Assembly: GCA_002684575.1 (NCBI GenBank)
Contig: NYVP01000188.1
Location: 1 to 13,171, forward strand
DNA length: 13,171 nt
Source: Verrucomicrobiales bacterium
Lineage (GTDB): Bacteria; Verrucomicrobiota; Verrucomicrobiia; Verrucomicrobiales; DEV007
Direction: 5' to 3'
Both the position numbers and the translations under genes were made by a program. Every line of letters starts with the position of its first letter. Positions within the stretch are counted from its first letter, which is position 1. The notes below the pieces were generated by a model. That model had not been told where the DNA came from, searched no databases, and saw only the letters and a list, made by a program, of their open reading frames with translations. Positions 1,439 to 13,171 of this stretch are shown piece by piece.

Positions 1439-4060
1439 GTGAGGTGGCCGCTGCTAACTATCAGTCTTTTTTTAATGGGTATATTAAAGTCCCATTCTGC
1501 GAATCCTGTCTCTGAAACCCTCTTTGCTCATAAGATCCAACCTCTCTTTAAGTCCAAGTGTTTGGCCTGTCACGGGGAAGGACCTAATAATAAGATCAAA
1601 GGGGACTTGGATATGCGTTCACTTGATGGGTTAATTAAAGGGGGAGAGAGTGGAGAGCCTTCTATTATACCGGGAAATGCAAATAAGAGTCCTTTATATT
1701 TAGCCATCACTCGTGTCCACGAGGATGACTGGTCAGCCATGCCTCCCAAAGAAAATGATAAATTGGATAAGGATCAGATTGGATACCTTCGAGATTGGAT
1801 AAACGGTGGGGCAAATTGGCCTAGTGAAGAAAAAATTGCTCAAATTCTAAAGTCTCCGGACCCTTGGGAAAAGGGCAACGGAGTCAAGGTCATGACGAGC
1901 GGAGGGATGGATCCAACATGGACCAATAGAAAGTATGAAAAAGAGGACCTTTGGGCATACCAAAATTTACAGGAGGTTGAAGTTCCCAATGGAGTCCATC
2001 CCATAGATTATTTCATCGAAAATAAGTTACCAAAAGGTCTTTCTGTAGCGGCGCAATCGGATCCGACCACTTTAATCCGTCGAGTGAGCTTTAGTTTGAC
2101 GGGGCTCCCACCGAGCCCTCAAGAAGTTAAGCAATTTATAGATTCATGGAATGATAATTCTGCCGAGGCATGGTCAAACCTTGTAGATCGTTTGCTTGAG
2201 TCTCCACATTACGGAGAACAAATGGCAAAACATTGGTTGGACGTGGTGAGGTATGGTGATTCCGCAGGGTTTTCCAATGACTATCCGAGGCCTCATGCCT
2301 GGCGTTATCGAGATTATGTGGTTCGTTCTTTTAATGAGGATAAGCCCTACGACCAATTTGTAAGAGAACAGATCGCAGGAGATGAAATTAATGGAAGTGA
2401 TCCTGAGCACATCATTGCTACAGGATTCTTACGGATGGGACCTTGGGAGCATACCGCGATGAGTGTCAAAGCAGTGACTCGTCAGCAGTACCTAGATGAT
2501 GTGGTTAATTCGGTTGGAGTGACTTTCCTAGCCAACGAGCTTCGTTGTGCGAAATGCCATGACCATAAATTTGATCCTATACCAATAAAAGACTATTATC
2601 GGATGCAGGCGATATTTGCTCCTGTGTCTTTTTCCGAGCAGCCCCTTCCGTGGCAGGAATTCGAAAATCAAAAAGGGATTAAAGAAGATGGCGCACGTTA
2701 CCAACGTCTTATTAAAGCGGATGGGATAAGAAGTATTAATACTCTTCCCGAGGAAGAGAGGCCGGTAATGAAGTTTGATCAAGAATCTGAAAAAGCTGGT
2801 CACTCAAAGGTCAGGAATAAGAGACGTCAACAGCTCAACTATCAGCTCAAGCGATCTCAAGCTGCCGCTTTTGCAGTTTCTAATGGAAAGCCGGATCAAA
2901 TTCATATTCTTCAGGGTGGCTCTATTGAGACTCCATTAGACGAAGTTAACCCTGGATTTTTAAGTCTTTTTAGTGGTTCAGAAAAACTTTCCTCTGTGAC
3001 TAATAAAAAAAGTGGTCGTCGCGAAGAGCTTGCCCAATGGATTACCGACAAAGACAACCCACTCACTTCGCGAGTCATTGTTAATCGTATTTGGCAATGG
3101 CATTTTGGACAGGCCTTGGCGGGCAATCCAAATAATTTTGGAGGAACAGGTAAGAAGCCAACTCATCCTGAGCTTCTGGATTGGTTAGCACAAAAATTTA
3201 TGGATGAGGGTTGGTCATTGAAAAAACTACACCGAATCATTCTCAGCTCTTCGGTTTATCAACGATCAACAAAACATCCAGAACCAAAAACTTTAGCAAG
3301 ACTTGATCCCAAGGGAGTGAGCTACTCGGTGTTTTCCCCGCGCCGTTTGAGTGCTGAGGAATTGCGTGATTCAATGCTCTTCGTATCTGGTGAGTTAAAT
3401 TTATCTGTTGGAGGTATACCGTGTCATCCTGAAATTAATGATGAAGTGGCTATGCAGCCACGGCATATCATGGGTTCAGTAGGTCCCGCCTATCAGGCCG
3501 ACCCTCTCCCTTCTCAACGTAATCGACGCACACTTTATGCTGAGCGGATTAGGACCTTGGCAGATCCAATGCTGGAAACTTTTAACAAGCCTGGTCCTGA
3601 TACTTCTTGTGAACGTCGTGAGAATGCCACCATCGCCCCTCAGGCCTTTACAATGCTAAACAGTCCAATCATACGGGCTCGAGCCTTGGCTCTTGCTGCT
3701 AGGCTTGAAAGAGAAAAACCAAACAGTATTAAACAACAAGTCCAACTCGCCTTTCAGTTAACTTATCAGCGATTCCCGAATGAAGATGAATTAAAGATGT
3801 GTTTTGAACATCTTAAGATTTTCACCGAACAGCATACATCCAATCCACAGGAAGAGATAGAGAAGCCAAAGTATGTGATTCGTCGAATGGTTGAAGAAAT
3901 GACAGGGCTCGCCTTTTGGTGGGTGGAAGATTTGGATGTCTATGCTGGTGGAGAATATAAGCCCGACCTTAAGCCATGGGATGTGGGTATTGAAACATTG
4001 GCGATGGGAGATTTGTGTTTGGTCCTGTTTAATTCCAACGAATTTGTGTACGTTTATTGA
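1439..4060 (+). CDS. PSCyt1-PSCyt2 (DUF1549)-PSD1 (DUF1553) cytochrome-type secreted protein
   Basis: This 873-residue protein has the full planctomycetal-type architecture. A signal peptide (about residues 1-21, cleavage near SHSA/N) precedes a haem-c domain with CLACH at 41-45 and a likely Met ligand in AMPP near 101. The DUF1549 region (about 185-400) contains HYGEQMAKHWLDVVRYGDS and a second CxxCH, CAKCHDHKFDP, at 370-380. The DUF1553 region (about 520-850) contains NPLTSRVIVNRIWQWHFG and the typical ending LCLVLFNSNEFVYV. The family is abundant in Planctomycetota and Verrucomicrobiota, always next to DUF1501 genes, and is thought to act outside the cytoplasmic membrane, perhaps in electron transfer during polymer breakdown; no reaction is established. 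The GTG at 1439 is the only start after an in-frame TAA (1400-1402) that keeps the signal peptide. Confidence 0.93.
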   Translation: MRWPLLTISLFLMGILKSHSANPVSETLFAHKIQPLFKSKCLACHGEGPNNKIKGDLDMRSLDGLIKGGESGEPSIIPGNANKSPLYLAITRVHEDDWSAMPPKENDKLDKDQIGYLRDWINGGANWPSEEKIAQILKSPDPWEKGNGVKVMTSGGMDPTWTNRKYEKEDLWAYQNLQEVEVPNGVHPIDYFIENKLPKGLSVAAQSDPTTLIRRVSFSLTGLPPSPQEVKQFIDSWNDNSAEAWSNLVDRLLESPHYGEQMAKHWLDVVRYGDSAGFSNDYPRPHAWRYRDYVVRSFNEDKPYDQFVREQIAGDEINGSDPEHIIATGFLRMGPWEHTAMSVKAVTRQQYLDDVVNSVGVTFLANELRCAKCHDHKFDPIPIKDYYRMQAIFAPVSFSEQPLPWQEFENQKGIKEDGARYQRLIKADGIRSINTLPEEERPVMKFDQESEKAGHSKVRNKRRQQLNYQLKRSQAAAFAVSNGKPDQIHILQGGSIETPLDEVNPGFLSLFSGSEKLSSVTNKKSGRREELAQWITDKDNPLTSRVIVNRIWQWHFGQALAGNPNNFGGTGKKPTHPELLDWLAQKFMDEGWSLKKLHRIILSSSVYQRSTKHPEPKTLARLDPKGVSYSVFSPRRLSAEELRDSMLFVSGELNLSVGGIPCHPEINDEVAMQPRHIMGSVGPAYQADPLPSQRNRRTLYAERIRTLADPMLETFNKPGPDTSCERRENATIAPQAFTMLNSPIIRARALALAARLEREKPNSIKQQVQLAFQLTYQRFPNEDELKMCFEHLKIFTEQHTSNPQEEIEKPKYVIRRMVEEMTGLAFWWVEDLDVYAGGEYKPDLKPWDVGIETLAMGDLCLVLFNSNEFVYVY

Positions 4061-6831: not shown

Positions 6832-7629
6832 ATGAACGAAACTTCTTCTTCTACATTCAAGGCTCTACAAGCGGGCCTCTCCACTGAAGGTATTACATTG
6901 TACCTCTTCTGGTTGGGTATTGTTGGAATGGGTGCTGGTGCAATCTATTTATGGATGCTTCAGGGAACTCTTTCCGATAAATACAAAAAAGTTGCAATTG
7001 TCGCGGGTATCATCTGCGCAGTTGCTTGTTTCCACTACTACAGGATGGCTTCCATCTACGCTGAGTCATTGGCAAACGCCATTACCATAGTTGACGGCGA
7101 AGTCTCAATTGGTGAACTTTCGGCCTTCCCAACGGCCTACAGGTATATCGATTGGTTGATTACTGTACCACTGATGGTGCTAGAGTTTCCACTTCTCCTT
7201 GCTTTAGGTAAAAAGAGTAAAGGATTGTTTTGGAATTTGGGCGCCCTTTCCCTTGGGATGCTTATCTTTGCATGGATTGCTGAGACAAGTCCTTTAGGCG
7301 GAGGTGTTTGGTGGGGTTTCTACATAGTATCATGCGTATTTTGGCTGCTTATTGTAAAACAGCTATATGGCCAGGTATCAAATGCTGCTTCCCATCTTCC
7401 AGAATCATTTCAAGGTCAGTTGGGGGTTATGAAAAAGTTCATTGCTATTGGTTGGATAATTTATCCTGTAGGCTTCCTGCTTGCATTATCAAGTAACGAA
7501 AGTCTTCGCGAAATTGCCTACAATGTTGCTGATGTTATCAACAAGGTTGGTTTTGGTGTCGCTTGTGTGATTGCTGCACAAATGCTCACCAAGCTTGAAT
7601 CCGAAGGTTCCTTGCCAACTGCTGAGTAG
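6832..7629 (+). CDS. proteorhodopsin, light-driven outward proton pump (green-tuned)
   Basis: This 265-residue protein has seven hydrophobic helices and all key proteorhodopsin residues. H68 in FHYYRM matches the His that pairs with the counterion. Helix C, RYIDWLITVPLMVLEF, holds D107 (proton acceptor), T111 and E118 (proton donor), the DTE signature of an outward H+ pump. The spectral-tuning position (105 in the SAR86 protein) is M115, which goes with green absorption. Helix F carries WIIYPVG, and helix G has the retinal Schiff-base lysine K238 in NVADVINKVGFG. At the helix E position equivalent to BR W138 and xanthorhodopsin G156 I align Y164, so a carotenoid antenna is unlikely. The next gene, blh, starts directly after its stop and supplies retinal. 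The role is light-driven proton motive force at the cytoplasmic membrane. Confidence 0.97.
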   Translation: MNETSSSTFKALQAGLSTEGITLYLFWLGIVGMGAGAIYLWMLQGTLSDKYKKVAIVAGIICAVACFHYYRMASIYAESLANAITIVDGEVSIGELSAFPTAYRYIDWLITVPLMVLEFPLLLALGKKSKGLFWNLGALSLGMLIFAWIAETSPLGGGVWWGFYIVSCVFWLLIVKQLYGQVSNAASHLPESFQGQLGVMKKFIAIGWIIYPVGFLLALSSNESLREIAYNVADVINKVGFGVACVIAAQMLTKLESEGSLPTAE

Positions 7630-8754
7630 GTGGTTGAATCAATTCATAAACAAACCAGAGCGCTCCGTCCACACGGATCGCTCATATTTTTTATTCCACT
7701 TGCTGCACTTTGTTTAATTTGGCTAGCAAGCAAACAAATTTTTTCAATAGTTCCCTCTGCATCGTCATGGATTTGGGTTTTCTCCTTAGCGTTTATGGGA
7801 ATGGCGCACGGCAGCCTGGATCTTCATGTCCAAGAATGGTCGAAAAACGGTGAATTCAAGGCCAAAGGTTGGACCAAATTTTTTTGGTACATTGGTTTGA
7901 TGGTTTTGACCTTTTCGCTCTTTTATATTTTTCCCTTAATCGTAACATTGGCATTCTTAACCCTAACAGCGATTCATTTCGGTGAAGCTGACAGAGTGCA
8001 TGCGGTAGAATGTTTTGGAAGCTCTTCATACATTCCCAAATCATGGGCCTGGACGAGAGGATCTTTTGTAGTTGCAATTCCTTCAGTACTGCATCCCATG
8101 AAAACTTGGGAACCATTTTATCACCTCAGTAATTATTCCTACGATTTAGTTTTAGGTAACTCAATAGCAATTTTCGGCTTCTCTCTACTCGTAGTAACAA
8201 TAACCTTGTCTGTAGTTGGTTCTTTTGATCGAAGGATAAAATGGTCTTCACCTATAGTTGCAGCATATATTTTCGAATCCATCATATGTTTGTTATGGTT
8301 CGTATATTTACCACCCCTTTTTGCTATAGGCGGCTATTTTCTAGCAATTCATTCTACAAAACATATGATCAGGCTTTCACAATTCAAAATACAAAAAAAT
8401 AAGAACTCAGATATTCTGAGAAGTGTATTAAAGCTTCACGTTGACGCTGTGTGGCTTGGAGCACCGGCATATTTAGTAGTTATAATTTGGTCATATTTCC
8501 TTGGTGCTGACTGGGCCTCCTCCTTAGCGTTTGCCTCGATAGGTTTTTATCTGATCTCAACTTTTCCTCACCACCTGCTTGTGGCCAAAATTCCGATTAG
8601 AAACTTTATCTCTGAACCCAATGATTCCGTGCTTGATAAAACCATTCAAAAATTTTCATCATCCTTAATGAAATTTAATATCAATAGTGGACATGATGAT
8701 GTCTACTCAAGCAGCGCTCCTGAAAGGGCATCAAGTTCTAGTCACATAGAATAG
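7630..8754 (+). CDS. blh: beta-carotene 15,15'-dioxygenase, Brp/Blh family
   Basis: This is an integral membrane enzyme of about 374 residues that cleaves beta-carotene into two retinal molecules, the chromophore of the adjacent rhodopsin. The four iron-binding histidines of the family are recognisable: H60 in MAHGSLD, H116 in IHFGEAD, and H241 with H245 in HSTKH. The PHH near 313-315 is also family-typical. Spacing (56, 125 and 4 residues) is close to that of the characterised marine Blh. Multiple hydrophobic helices fill most of the length, and the last 40 residues are a polar Ser-rich tail. The start is a GTG immediately after the TAG of the rhodopsin gene with no gap, so the two are co-transcribed and probably translationally coupled. 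No carotenoid synthesis genes (crtE, B, I, Y) are in the window, so beta-carotene must be made from elsewhere in the genome. Confidence 0.95.
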   Translation: MVESIHKQTRALRPHGSLIFFIPLAALCLIWLASKQIFSIVPSASSWIWVFSLAFMGMAHGSLDLHVQEWSKNGEFKAKGWTKFFWYIGLMVLTFSLFYIFPLIVTLAFLTLTAIHFGEADRVHAVECFGSSSYIPKSWAWTRGSFVVAIPSVLHPMKTWEPFYHLSNYSYDLVLGNSIAIFGFSLLVVTITLSVVGSFDRRIKWSSPIVAAYIFESIICLLWFVYLPPLFAIGGYFLAIHSTKHMIRLSQFKIQKNKNSDILRSVLKLHVDAVWLGAPAYLVVIIWSYFLGADWASSLAFASIGFYLISTFPHHLLVAKIPIRNFISEPNDSVLDKTIQKFSSSLMKFNINSGHDDVYSSSAPERASSSSHIE

Positions 8755-10122: not shown

Positions 10123-10914
10123 CTAATTTTCATTATCAGGAATAAAAGCTGAAATCATTTTTCTGAAGCCATCTACTTGTTTGCGGTAACTAGAGACCTG
10201 TTCAACATCCAAGAACTCAGCAACACCATTAATCCTTTTGTCCAGAGCATCATCAATAAATCCCATAAATTGGTCTCTATTAACATTGGTCATATCCATT
10301 GACTCCGGTTTTTCTGAAGCATTAATCTCAATAAACAAGTCACGGGCCTGATCGATTTGATCCTCTGTAATTCCAGTTATTTCTCTTATTCCGTCAAGGT
10401 CTTCTTCTGTTTTCTTTTCGATTCTCTTTATCTCGCGTTCTTCTGCATACGTTTCATATTCTGCGAGTTGATTTTCCGAGAGAAGACCCTGCATTGCATT
10501 ATCAATGGAAGAATAATTATCCTCGTCTGAAGCGATAAGATCAGCAATCGTAGCCTTTCCAGTTAACAACTTCAAGCCAGCTTCTGACTGAGTTTTTGAC
10601 TTCGCTTCTAGGAGTTCTTGAAGTTTGTTTTTTTGGTTCGCCGTAAGTGTCAGCCTTTCGGCTAATTTATCGACCTCAACACTGACTTCTGCTTTTTGTT
10701 TGTTTTCACCAAGAGCCATGATAGTTTCCCAGAACTCATTGCCCTTCTCTTCATCTTTTTTCTCATTCTTGTCTTCTACCTCAGGTTTCTCAGGTAAGGG
10801 ATTTTTTTCTGGGCCTGTATTGGCTATTGATAATCGAGATGCCTTTGATAATTGATTGGAGTCATTCAATGCCTTTTCAGATTGTTGAGTGATTAAATTT
10901 TTTTTCTGGTTCAT
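10123..10914 (-). CDS. acidic helical protein with duplicated LTxxQ-type repeats, unknown function
   Basis: This 263-residue, strongly charged, helix-rich protein has a disordered Pro/Glu/Lys linker at about 35-58. After that there are two copies of the same layout: LTANQKNKLQELL (90-102) then LLSENQLAEYETY (144-156), and ITEDQIDQARDLF (182-194) then FLDVEQVSSYRKQ (234-246). The Q-to-Q spacing is 55 and 53 residues, so the domain looks internally duplicated. The motifs resemble those in Spy/CpxP-like LTxxQ periplasmic proteins, but I cannot assign a family. As called from the ATG at 10914 it lacks a membrane segment. A 48-codon frame overlapping its start encodes one, and the two are probably a single gene split at an A8 run (see 10877-11023). 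Confidence 0.65.
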   Translation of the reverse strand: MNQKKNLITQQSEKALNDSNQLSKASRLSIANTGPEKNPLPEKPEVEDKNEKKDEEKGNEFWETIMALGENKQKAEVSVEVDKLAERLTLTANQKNKLQELLEAKSKTQSEAGLKLLTGKATIADLIASDEDNYSSIDNAMQGLLSENQLAEYETYAEEREIKRIEKKTEEDLDGIREITGITEDQIDQARDLFIEINASEKPESMDMTNVNRDQFMGFIDDALDKRINGVAEFLDVEQVSSYRKQVDGFRKMISAFIPDNEN

Positions 10915-11120: not shown

Positions 11121-12368
11121 ATGATAAGGATAATATTTATTTTATCGGTCACGATAATATTTGGTTTTTCAGATAATGAAAAATGGGAGCCAGTTATTGT
11201 TCCAGAAAAAAAAGAAGGGCTAATAAATAGTGCGAGAGAGATTGAAGTCTTCCAACATGGGATAAAAAAAGAATGGGGATATAATAAACCACAAACTGAC
11301 ACTTTTATTGTCATTCATCCTGATTCTCCTAAGAAAAATGCTCCATTATATGTTGTTTTACACTCAGCGGGGCATGATGTTTTTTCTGCTGTTAAGTGTA
11401 CAAAACAAGTCGGAAACCATGATATTTATCACTCTCCGCCAAGTTTTTATGCCCTTTATGTCGATTGTAGGGCCAACAAAGGAGATTGGTGGTGGGGAGG
11501 AATGCATGCGAGAGATGCTAATCTTAAAAAACAAAATTCAGGCGTATCAACCCGGCCGGTTGAAAAGCGAGTTATAGATACGGTTAAGTGGGTCACGGAT
11601 AATTATGATATTGATCCTAACAGAGTTTATTTGTCGGGCAACTCAATGGGGGGAAGTGGTGCGCTAGGGATTGGCTTGCGTCATGGAGATATTTTTGCGG
11701 CAATCAAAGCCAATGTTCCGGCAGGTATAGAGCATGCCGATCAGAGAATGTCATTCTCTGATTTTAAAAAATCAGAGAACCTTAACCTGCCTGATCCTCC
11801 AATCACATTAAATTACTCCGGTCAAAATGATGGCTGGTCCTTCGGTCATGACAGATTTGTTAATGCGATGAATGGAAGAAAGTACCCTCTTTATTTTTAC
11901 TGGGGAGCGTTTGGTCATGCTAATAATCATGCAAGAATTCTTAAAGTAAATGACCTTATCAACTCGTTTGATTGGCTTAATGTTAGAAAAAACCAGGCCT
12001 ATCCAGTTTTTACCAATGCTTCGTGTAACAGTAAATTGCCCTGGCCTGATAACTTGAAAGATAAAAAGTCAGGCCAGCTAAATGCATTTTTTAGATGGAG
12101 ATCAATCAGTGATACAGAAAAAGATTTTAAGATTTCCCTTTTTATGATCTCGTCTGATCAATTGAAAACCGAATTCCGAATTCCTGAAAAAGCAGCTACT
12201 GATGTGAGTTTGCGGAGATTACAGAGAATGAAGCTTAACGAAGGAGATTCAGTGAAGTGGAGTTTTGGAAAAGTGAATGGAGAAACTATTATTGGCTCTG
12301 ATAATATATTTACCGTCAAAAATCTAAATCTGACAAGTACCCCACAAACCTTGTCTATTAACAAGTAA
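11121..12368 (+). CDS. secreted alpha/beta hydrolase (esterase / PHB-depolymerase-like)
   Basis: This 415-residue protein starts with a short signal peptide (about 1-17). Its catalytic domain shows an oxyanion-region strand YVVLHSAGHD (about 78-87), the nucleophile elbow YLSGNSMGGSGA with S175, an acid candidate D237 in SGQNDGWSFGH, and a catalytic His in WGAFGHANNH (H266 or H270). This arrangement matches the PHB-depolymerase, feruloyl-esterase and CE1-like group of secreted esterases. A domain of about 120 residues follows, with PWPDNL and SGQLNAFFRWRS, probably a beta-sandwich. The motif DWWWGGMHARDAN near 122-134 is an aromatic-rich loop probably lining the active site. The substrate could be an acyl ester on polysaccharide or a polyester; I cannot tell which. 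GAGG lies just before the ATG but is too close to be a normal ribosome binding site. Confidence 0.8.
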   Translation: MIRIIFILSVTIIFGFSDNEKWEPVIVPEKKEGLINSAREIEVFQHGIKKEWGYNKPQTDTFIVIHPDSPKKNAPLYVVLHSAGHDVFSAVKCTKQVGNHDIYHSPPSFYALYVDCRANKGDWWWGGMHARDANLKKQNSGVSTRPVEKRVIDTVKWVTDNYDIDPNRVYLSGNSMGGSGALGIGLRHGDIFAAIKANVPAGIEHADQRMSFSDFKKSENLNLPDPPITLNYSGQNDGWSFGHDRFVNAMNGRKYPLYFYWGAFGHANNHARILKVNDLINSFDWLNVRKNQAYPVFTNASCNSKLPWPDNLKDKKSGQLNAFFRWRSISDTEKDFKISLFMISSDQLKTEFRIPEKAATDVSLRRLQRMKLNEGDSVKWSFGKVNGETIIGSDNIFTVKNLNLTSTPQTLSINK

Positions 12369-12438
12369 ATTTGATTTTTTATGTCACTTGACTAGTGGCT
12401 TTGTAGCTTATATTAACTATAATTAAACTACATAATAT

Positions 12439-12660
12439 ATGGAAATATCTATTCTCTATTGAGGAATGTGAAACTACAAACCTCAAGCCGTCAGTTTGGC
12501 GGATAAAATAAAGAGTGAGTTTGCAGATGCAAATGTCGAAATCGTTGAAGGAAGTGGTGGAGTCTTTGAAGTTACCTTTGATGGTAAGTTAATTTACTCT
12601 AAAAAAGAGACAGGAGAATTTCCTGAGGAGCAGGATATTTTGAATATATTAAAAGGATAG
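12439..12660 (+). CDS. selW: SelW-like (Rdx / SelT-SelW-SelH family) selenoprotein with UxxU motif
   Basis: Read from the ATG at 12439 to the TAG at 12658-12660 through two in-frame TGA codons (12460-12462 and 12469-12471), this gives 73 residues. It begins MEISILY-U-GM-U-NYKPQA and continues with a helix SLADKIKSEF, a turn VEIVEGSGGVFEV, and FDGKLIYSKKETGEFPEE. This matches the thioredoxin-like SelW/Rdx fold along its whole length (compare YCGAUGYK and the later GxFEVxxxGKLIxSKK in animal SelW). Both TGAs fall exactly on the CxxC/CxxU redox positions, so they most likely encode selenocysteine (U8, U11). No in-frame ATG exists after the second TGA, and TAA lies just upstream, so normal callers miss it. 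A SECIS-like hairpin follows at 12488-12502. The expected role is a small cytosolic thiol/selenol redox protein. Chance decay to TGA at just these two codons seems very unlikely. Confidence 0.85.
12488..12502 (+). promoter_or_regulatory. candidate bacterial SECIS hairpin in the SelW-like gene
   Basis: CCGTC (12488-12492) pairs with GGCGG (12498-12502), four Watson-Crick pairs and one G-U, closing a 5-base loop AGTTT whose second base is G. The apical loop begins 21 bases after the second TGA and 30 bases after the first. Both fit the spacing known for bacterial SECIS elements (about 16-37 bases), so one element could serve both codons through SelB. The stem is short and another fold (CAAAC 12477-12481 with GTTTG 12494-12498) competes. 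Confidence 0.5.
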
Positions 12661-12667
12661 AATTATT

Positions 12668-12702
12668 GAGCTTAAATTTTTTTCATTTATCAAAAAAAGC
12701 TC
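12668..12702 (+). terminator. hairpin after the SelW-like gene
   Basis: GAGCTT (12668-12673) pairs with AAGCTC (12697-12702). A T7 run (12677-12683) and an A7 run (12692-12698) can extend the stem after a 3-base bulge. It begins 8 bases after the stop codon. No T-tract follows on this strand, so termination is uncertain; it may stabilise the 3' end instead. Confidence 0.35.
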
Positions 12703-12748
12703 GCATAAATATTGAGATCCAAGTTTAAATAAAAATTGAAAGTTTCAT

Positions 12749-12817
12749 GAGCTTAGGCTCACGAGGAGCCGTCCCTCTTCCTTTATTTATAACCCCACTT
12801 TGAAGGAAGGGGACGGC
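12749..12817 (+). ncRNA. structured region with 15-16 bp inverted repeat, candidate ncRNA
   Basis: The left arm at 12768-12783 (GCCGTCCCTCTTCCTT) pairs almost perfectly with the right arm at 12803-12817 (AAGGAAGGGGACGGC), one base bulged, around a 19-base loop. Just upstream, GAGC-ttag-GCTC (12749-12760) and GGCTC-acgag-GAGCC (12756-12770) are two further hairpins that share bases with each other, and the second shares GCC with the long stem, so the folds are mutually exclusive. It is GC-rich against an AT-rich background, and a terminator-like hairpin with T8 ends at 12900. This could be a small RNA, a switching attenuator, or a dispersed intergenic repeat. I do not recognise a known riboswitch class. 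Confidence 0.4.
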
Positions 12818-12873
12818 CAGTCTCAGCAAGTCCCGAGTATTTACATACACGAGTCACATATATAACTCCGCCT

Positions 12874-12900
12874 CTAAGTCAAATCTTAGCAATTTTTTTT
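12874..12900 (+). terminator. weak factor-independent terminator
   Basis: CTAAG (12874-12878) pairs with CTTAG (12885-12889) around a 6-base loop, followed by CAA and T8 (12893-12900). The T-tract is good but the stem is short and AT-rich. It would end a transcript coming through the structured region upstream. Confidence 0.4.
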
Positions 12901-13056
12901 AACAATTTCGGCACACGTTATAAAAATAGGGTTTTTGTGCATTTTTAATTTAAAATTTTTCACCAGACATTGGGTTTTGGAATGCAATAGTTAAGAAATA
13001 CGTAGTTTTTTATTCACTATATGTATTGAAAATCTTTTTTAGGAGATTTTATTTTA

Positions 13057-13073
13057 TTGGCACAAGAGTTGCG
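13057..13073 (+). promoter_or_regulatory. sigma-54 (RpoN) promoter
   Basis: TTGGCAC (13057-13063) and TTGC (13069-13072) carry the invariant GG and GC separated by exactly 10 bases, matching the -24/-12 consensus TGGCAC-N5-TTGC. The start of transcription should lie near 13084, about 17 bases before the ATG at 13101. Such promoters need an enhancer-binding ATPase; I could not identify its binding site upstream. Confidence 0.7.
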
Positions 13074-13100
13074 CGAATTTTATAAAAATAAATTCAAATT

Positions 13101-13171
13101 ATGCACATATTAGTACAACACGAGGTTGAAGATTTTGAAGTGTGGAAAAAAGTTTACGATGAAGATGAGCC
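13101..13171 (+). CDS. small ABM/dimeric alpha-beta barrel-like protein, 3' truncated
   Basis: Only the first 23 codons are in the window: MHILVQHEVEDFEVWKKVYD followed by EDE. A first beta-strand (HILVQHEV) followed by a DF-x-x-W-K-x-V-Y-D helix start is what the small cyclase or antibiotic-biosynthesis-monooxygenase type of ferredoxin-like barrel proteins show (members often begin with a strand then VxDFxxWKxxFD). The function cannot be specified from this fragment. The ATG is 28 bases after a strong sigma-54 promoter, so expression is probably conditional. Confidence 0.55.
   Translation, partial: MHILVQHEVEDFEVWKKVYDEDE

Follow-up and report, generated by a model that had tools for sequence, protein, structure and literature searches.

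The selW gene of the window (the whole 13,171-nt stretch of Verrucomicrobiales DNA analysed here) is a real, conserved bacterial member of the SelW family with a UxxU redox motif, and both of its in-frame TGA codons very probably encode selenocysteine (Sec). We refer to these codons as UGA-1 and UGA-2; their positions, and those of the neighbouring RNA pairings, are collected in Table 1. The explanation that we favour, and that taken as a whole we consider probable, is a bacterial UxxU selW derived from a CxxU form, in which a single SECIS element would serve both UGAs and whose product would act as a diselenide reductase.

Table 1. Coordinates of the selW gene, its in-frame TGA codons and associated RNA pairings (numbered from the first base of the window)
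Feature	Coordinates	Strand	Description
selW-like CDS, UxxU	12439..12660	+	73 residues and TAG stop; ATG start
First in-frame TGA (UGA-1)	12460..12462	+	residue 8, predicted Sec; alternates with Cys codons in relatives
Second in-frame TGA (UGA-2)	12469..12471	+	residue 11, predicted Sec, usual SelW Sec position; TGA in nearly all relatives
SECIS-like hairpin core	12488-12502	+	stem CCGTC (12488-12492)/GGCGG (12498-12502), loop AGTTT (12493-12497)
Candidate lower stem, enclosing the second TGA	12460..12485	+	TGAGG (12460-12464)/CCTCA (12481-12485)

Apart from TGA at codons 8 and 11, the selW frame is free of stops up to its TAG, and its translation reads MEISILYUGMUNYKPQAVSLADKIKSEFADANVEIVEGSGGVFEVTFDGKLIYSKKETGEFPEEQDILNILKG. 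For profile searches both TGAs were read as Cys. The protein matched Pfam Rdx (PF10262) with 80.4 bits (cut-off 22.6), NCBIfam NF041051 with 103.5 bits (cut-off 88) and TIGR02174 with 72.9 bits (cut-off 34.2), and the two TGAs fall on the redox pair of the SelW/Rdx family. The original prediction of two TGAs three codons apart in a SelW/Rdx-like frame, and of membership in this family, was thus borne out by the reading of the frame and by the three profile matches. Cys at the first redox position, a trait of CxxC and CxxU SelW/Rdx proteins, is absent from the window gene, which has a TGA codon there; we class the gene as a variant within the family and not as its CxxU form.

An AlphaFold model of the window SelW, built on a 10-row alignment, reached a pLDDT of 93.2. 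Its closest structure was the SelW-family crystal structure 2fa8 (TM 0.91). Mouse SelW 2npb superposed with a TM of 0.74 and was also among the eight distinct sequences matched when solved structures were searched by sequence. Strand 2-8 of the model ends at residue 8 and helix 14-27 comes after it. The protein is predicted to have the thioredoxin-like fold of SelW, in which the redox pair lies between strand 1 and helix 1, and would carry two Sec separated by two residues in a thioredoxin-like redox motif. Such a protein, a putative small reductase, would most likely alternate between the diselenol form and a Se-Se bond. A diselenide in the redox motif of SelL is reportedly announced in the title of a 2007 paper by Shchedrina, and that diselenide is said to be experimental; SelL is a different family from the window SelW, in which the diselenide is a predicted one. 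SelL is given as a selenoprotein family with two Sec in the accessible text of PMC3473315.

The distribution of the two TGAs was examined in two sets of relatives. Within the order, an Rdx match was found in 70 of 386 genomes (74 rows). Counting the own gene, which was listed twice, only once and dropping one degenerate hit with several other stops and no match left 72 loci, of which 14 were UxxU, 55 CxxU and 3 CxxC. Twelve of the UxxU genomes, the own one included, belong to the window's family and two to a second family; both TGAs are therefore kept in 13 other genomes of the order besides the own. Rdx matches occurred in 21 of the 74 genomes of the window's family, and 12 of these 21 had two TGAs. 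For the second set GTDB species genomes were scanned and the best 80 of 100 passing loci taken. These named loci are not a random draw, since one of the two search patterns demanded a Cys codon at residue 11. U was present at residue 11 in all 80 of the best 80 of 100, with 10 UxxU and 70 CxxU loci; nine of these 10 came from Verrucomicrobia/Verrucomicrobiales and one from Planctomycetota (casp150-mb.178). The named UxxU records include AG-439-D21 and AG-313-K16, which we take to be names of single-cell genomes. The two sets cannot be added up because several genomes occur in both.

When repeats were removed from the 152 loci (72 of the order and the best 80 of 100 named), 134 distinct 60-base stretches were obtained: 116 CxxU, 15 UxxU and 3 CxxC. 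The first site is TGC or TGT in the 116 CxxU loci, Cys in the 3 CxxC and TGA in the 15 UxxU, and the second is TGA in 131 of the 134 and Cys in 3. Across the 72 order loci and the best 80 of 100 named loci, residues 8 and 11 were encoded only by Cys codons or TGA, with no Trp codon; relatives with neither Cys nor TGA at these residues, which the original prediction had named as telling against it, were absent from both. A phylum sample that overlaps the order (387 genomes, 48 with Rdx, judged by the stop table) held no two-TGA Rdx gene outside the own genome, so the UxxU form appears narrow outside the order. Searches of viral contigs and of phage records returned no relative of the window selW. 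CxxU SelW genes with an in-frame TGA were also seen in Bacillaceae (Salibacterium, Bacillus, Robertmurraya and Alkalihalobacillus; six loci).

A second copy of the region is present in the source genome, a 2.79-Mb assembly of 188 contigs (estimated 81.55% complete) in which the window is contig C188. The start of contig C109 (1-1045) overlaps window positions 12127-13171; the 1,045 shared bases show 9 mismatches, of which one is an N in C109. Both selW TGAs are kept in C109, and its selW translation is identical to that of the window; the differences therefore fall outside the SelW protein, and C109 lends the support of another haplotype or of a second copy in the assembly, and not that of a diverged gene. 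The relatives are the stronger support against an artefact. That the binned genome has two contig ends with 99.1% identity points to a mixture of strains or to an overlap left unmerged.

We then considered the RNA pairings downstream of the TGAs. Numbered from the base after UGA-2, positions 17-21 of the SECIS-like hairpin pair with 31-27 and positions 22-26 form the loop. All five stem pairs form in 13/15 UxxU and 98/116 CxxU loci and in 0/3 CxxC loci. Standard pairs fill 97.3% of the hairpin cells in UxxU and 96.4% in CxxU; sliding the 3′ side by 1-3 lowers this to 60.3% or less. Under a synonymous-codon null, all five pairs formed in a mean of 2.3 of the 15 UxxU loci (maximum 9; 2,000 draws) and 13.6 of the 116 CxxU loci (maximum 25; 400 draws). 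The pair types include C-G, T-A, G-C, A-T, T-G and G-T. The hairpin is maintained by compensatory changes, beyond the synonymous-codon null. Its loop is AGTTT in 14/15 UxxU rows and CGTGT, GGTCT, AGTTT or AGTCT in 103/116 CxxU rows. An Rfam scan of the window gave nothing at gathering scores.

The SECIS of eukaryotes is located in the 3′ UTR. The window gene differs from eukaryotic UxxU SELENOW in that its bacterial SECIS lies within the reading frame and would have to act on two codons at different distances. From UGA-2 to the start of the hairpin loop is 21 nt, and from UGA-1 it is 30 nt; the published range for the distance from the UGA, 16-37 nt, covers both. The other bSECIS rules, in the accessible text of PMC13188914, are a G in the first two loop positions, a stem of 4-16 bp and an MFE of -7.5 or lower. 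All 15 distinct UxxU loci fit this model for UGA-2, in having the loop G, an MFE below -7.5 and 4 or more stem pairs, and folds starting at UGA-1 gave MFEs of -9.4 to -20.8. We infer that the same hairpin serves UGA-1 too and that Sec is inserted there. In the proposed mechanism, Sec-tRNA would be made with SelA and SelD, and SelB, tethered by the one hairpin, would deliver it to both UGAs. SECIS spacing is reportedly strict in E. coli, so UGA-1 may be read poorly.

Genes of the Sec machinery, named in the original prediction as what to look for in the same genome, were found there above their cut-offs: selB (334.8 bits, cut-off 242.25), selA (435.1 bits, cut-off 267.9) and selD (356.6 bits, cut-off 125). 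The selD gene itself has one in-frame TGA, which falls in ...KTCGUAAKIDP... and is followed downstream by a hairpin with loop GGUC. No tRNA-Sec scored above the cut-off in the own assembly (81.55% complete), and the gene that flanks tRNA-Sec in relatives of the same genus was not found in it by a search run without a positive control. Eight scoring tRNA-Sec candidates in the own genome were rejected, being ordinary tRNAs by ARAGORN. A tRNA-Sec above the cut-off was present in 13 of 21 genomes searched, including 11 of 14 UxxU genomes; the three UxxU genomes in which it was missing are 53-82% complete (the own 81.6%, the other two 53% and 79%). ARAGORN, run on 10 of the 13 tRNA-Sec loci, called 9 as tRNA-SeC(tca) and gave none for the tenth. 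Direct support for the decoding of Sec in a bacterial SelW comes from Campylobacter jejuni, whose one-Sec SelW is translated through its UGA by Ribo-seq and proteomics, according to the accessible text of PMC11955535. The earlier proposal that both TGAs are Sec and form a UxxU motif is thus supported by the profile matches, the Cys of homologues, selA, selB and selD, the tRNA-Sec of relatives and the covarying SECIS-like hairpin.

The reading that both UGAs are Sec leaves room for UGA-1 to use an overlapping structure of its own, either the TGAGG/CCTCA stem or an alternative hairpin, with the mRNA refolding between the two decodings. Three enrichments speak for it: TGAGG can pair with CCTCA or, one mismatch being allowed, with CCCCA, and this stem forms a mean of 4.1 of 5 pairs in the 15 UxxU loci versus 2.4 in the 116 CxxU loci; an alternative 6-pair hairpin register, whose loop is displaced 4 nt upstream from that of the main hairpin, is complete in 8/15 UxxU versus 9/116 CxxU loci; and a Gly codon (GGN) follows the first site in 14/15 UxxU versus 14/116 CxxU loci. 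All three are weakened, however, because most UxxU rows are closely related and so not independent. The stem moreover includes the TGA itself and an invariant Pro codon, of which its enrichment is partly a by-product, and the alternative hairpin is incomplete in 7/15 UxxU rows, including two of the window's genus. We consider such a separate structure unlikely.

Less probable still is that only UGA-2 encodes Sec, UGA-1 ending a leader peptide or acting as a regulatory stop, with a restart at the codon 10 ATG (ATG-TGA). Met does stand at codon 10 in 11/15 distinct UxxU loci, and some database entries begin downstream (e.g. P0017), but the other 4/15 have Val, Gln or Lys there. Codons 2-7 are constrained as protein: pairwise comparison of 14 UxxU loci gave 159 synonymous versus 227 non-synonymous codon differences there, as against 38 versus 653 in the stretch of eight codons that precedes the ATG. 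Such a restart would also lose strand 1 and the first redox residue, and residue 8 alternates with Cys only.

A last possibility, that TGA is reassigned to Trp or that selW is a pseudogene or a sequencing error, finds some favour in the protein databases, where 21 of 51 hits are full-length WxxW (P0002-P0016, P0018-P0021, P0023 and P0026), 4 are CxxW and the remainder have an internal start or are shortened. It can be set aside with near certainty: the WxxW entries are most simply TGA taken as Trp by gene callers, loci read as DNA show Cys or TGA and no Trp codon at either site, both TGAs are kept in two own contigs and in 13 other genomes of the order, and a conserved window gene terminates with TGA. 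This last is the well-matched PSCyt2/PSD1 gene at 1439-4060; the original statement that TGA is a stop in the other genes of the window needs correcting, since of the ten other frames checked this gene alone has TGA as its stop. The Smr gene downstream of selW on contig C109 also terminates with TGA.

The favoured explanation, one SECIS for both UGAs of a gene derived from CxxU, also suggests a route to the UxxU form. The CxxU hairpin sits at the same place, so the first Cys codon of an ordinary CxxU selW is already within SECIS reach. A change of TGC or TGT to TGA takes one base, and an ordinary CxxU selW could become UxxU by such a third-base change (TGY to TGA) at this codon. Genus g43 holds both forms (L042 and L064 UxxU, L030 and L055 CxxU), so at least one form change, or a transfer, took place near g43. 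A tree of 138 rows (20 UxxU; 72 columns), most forks of which are poorly supported or drawn open, needed 7 form changes, of which the starred branches force only 1. In the 132-row set, holding the 15 UxxU rows as one clade cost 17.5 log units and was not rejected by the AU test (p 0.32); with the 14 UxxU rows remaining after removal of the Planctomycetota row, the constrained tree scored 1.7 units above that of the free search (p 0.52). A single Verrucomicrobial origin is therefore quite possible, and a repeated gain is hinted at, if anywhere, only between phyla. A fuller version of the account, in which one SECIS decodes two UGAs 9 nt apart, a one-base change in CxxU creates a diselenide site, the form was perhaps gained more than once (in Verrucomicrobiales and separately in Planctomycetota) and a Gly codon is favoured after UGA-1, is put forward tentatively; we judge it plausible, a little short of probable.

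Gene neighbourhood was compared at nine listed loci. A Smr-like gene lies downstream of selW in five, all of the window's genus or a neighbour genus: C109, where it comes after an ABM-like gene, DUBC01000010.1 (Verrucomicrobiales bacterium) and three others. Overlapping frames are listed in its place at two further loci, and the last two, including the Planctomycetota locus, have other neighbours. The own Smr gene, the sole copy tested by profile, matched PF01713. About 110 bases past the selW stop, an inverted repeat was noted by eye at 12768-12784/12803-12817 (GCCGTCCC... / ...GGGGACGGC), which is possibly a terminator or a small repeat element.

Elsewhere in the window, a bacteriorhodopsin-like gene at 6832-7629 (PF01036, 122.6 bits) lies immediately before a beta-carotene 15,15'-dioxygenase-like gene at 7630-8754 (PF15461, 106.1 bits), and the pair is probably a light-driven pump with retinal synthesis. 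A 263-residue frame at 10123-10914 on the minus strand had no Pfam match at E 0.001. The organism is probably marine: a 91%-identical protein (P0024) carries a Tara source label, and the relatives' names point the same way.

The original prediction had held that a two-Sec SelW would be unusual. This is to be tempered for eukaryotes: in the accessible parts of the cited papers, UxxU SelW has been published from Ostreococcus lucimarinus (PMC2375036, PMC7539508) and amphioxus (PMC3473315), whose SELENOW has two Sec, as predicted for the window SelW, and is called UxxU in PMC7539508. For this reason only the bacterial UxxU SelW looks new, and no description of one was found in open-access main texts, to which the search was confined. 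Prokaryotic selenoprotein tables, as far as these main texts give them, list SelW-like proteins as CxxU (PMC1088965, PMC2398784, PMC9312934, PMC13188914; with one Sec in the last). The window gene shares with the bacterial CxxU SelW-like genes (PF10262), its nearest CxxU relatives included, the family, the Sec at residue 11 and the SECIS position; it differs in the first redox residue, Cys in those genes and predicted Sec here. Other bacterial UxxU families appear in the same kind of tables, namely Prx-like 2, a mercuric-reductase-like metal-binding protein and an FmdB-like regulator (PMC2398784, PMC13188914); they have two Sec three residues apart, as predicted here, and are different families by the assignments of those tables.

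SelW-like proteins rank with the most abundant selenoproteins of marine bacteria, according to the accessible text of PMC2398784 and PMC9402790. UxxU SelW is probably under-counted because database entries shorten SelW or write Trp, and public protein sets may misrepresent such selenoproteins widely. Kept across two genera, the bacterial UxxU SelW offers a compact natural test of SECIS reach, with one element and two codons, and its comparison with the CxxU SelW of close relatives sets Cys against Sec at one position in a small protein.
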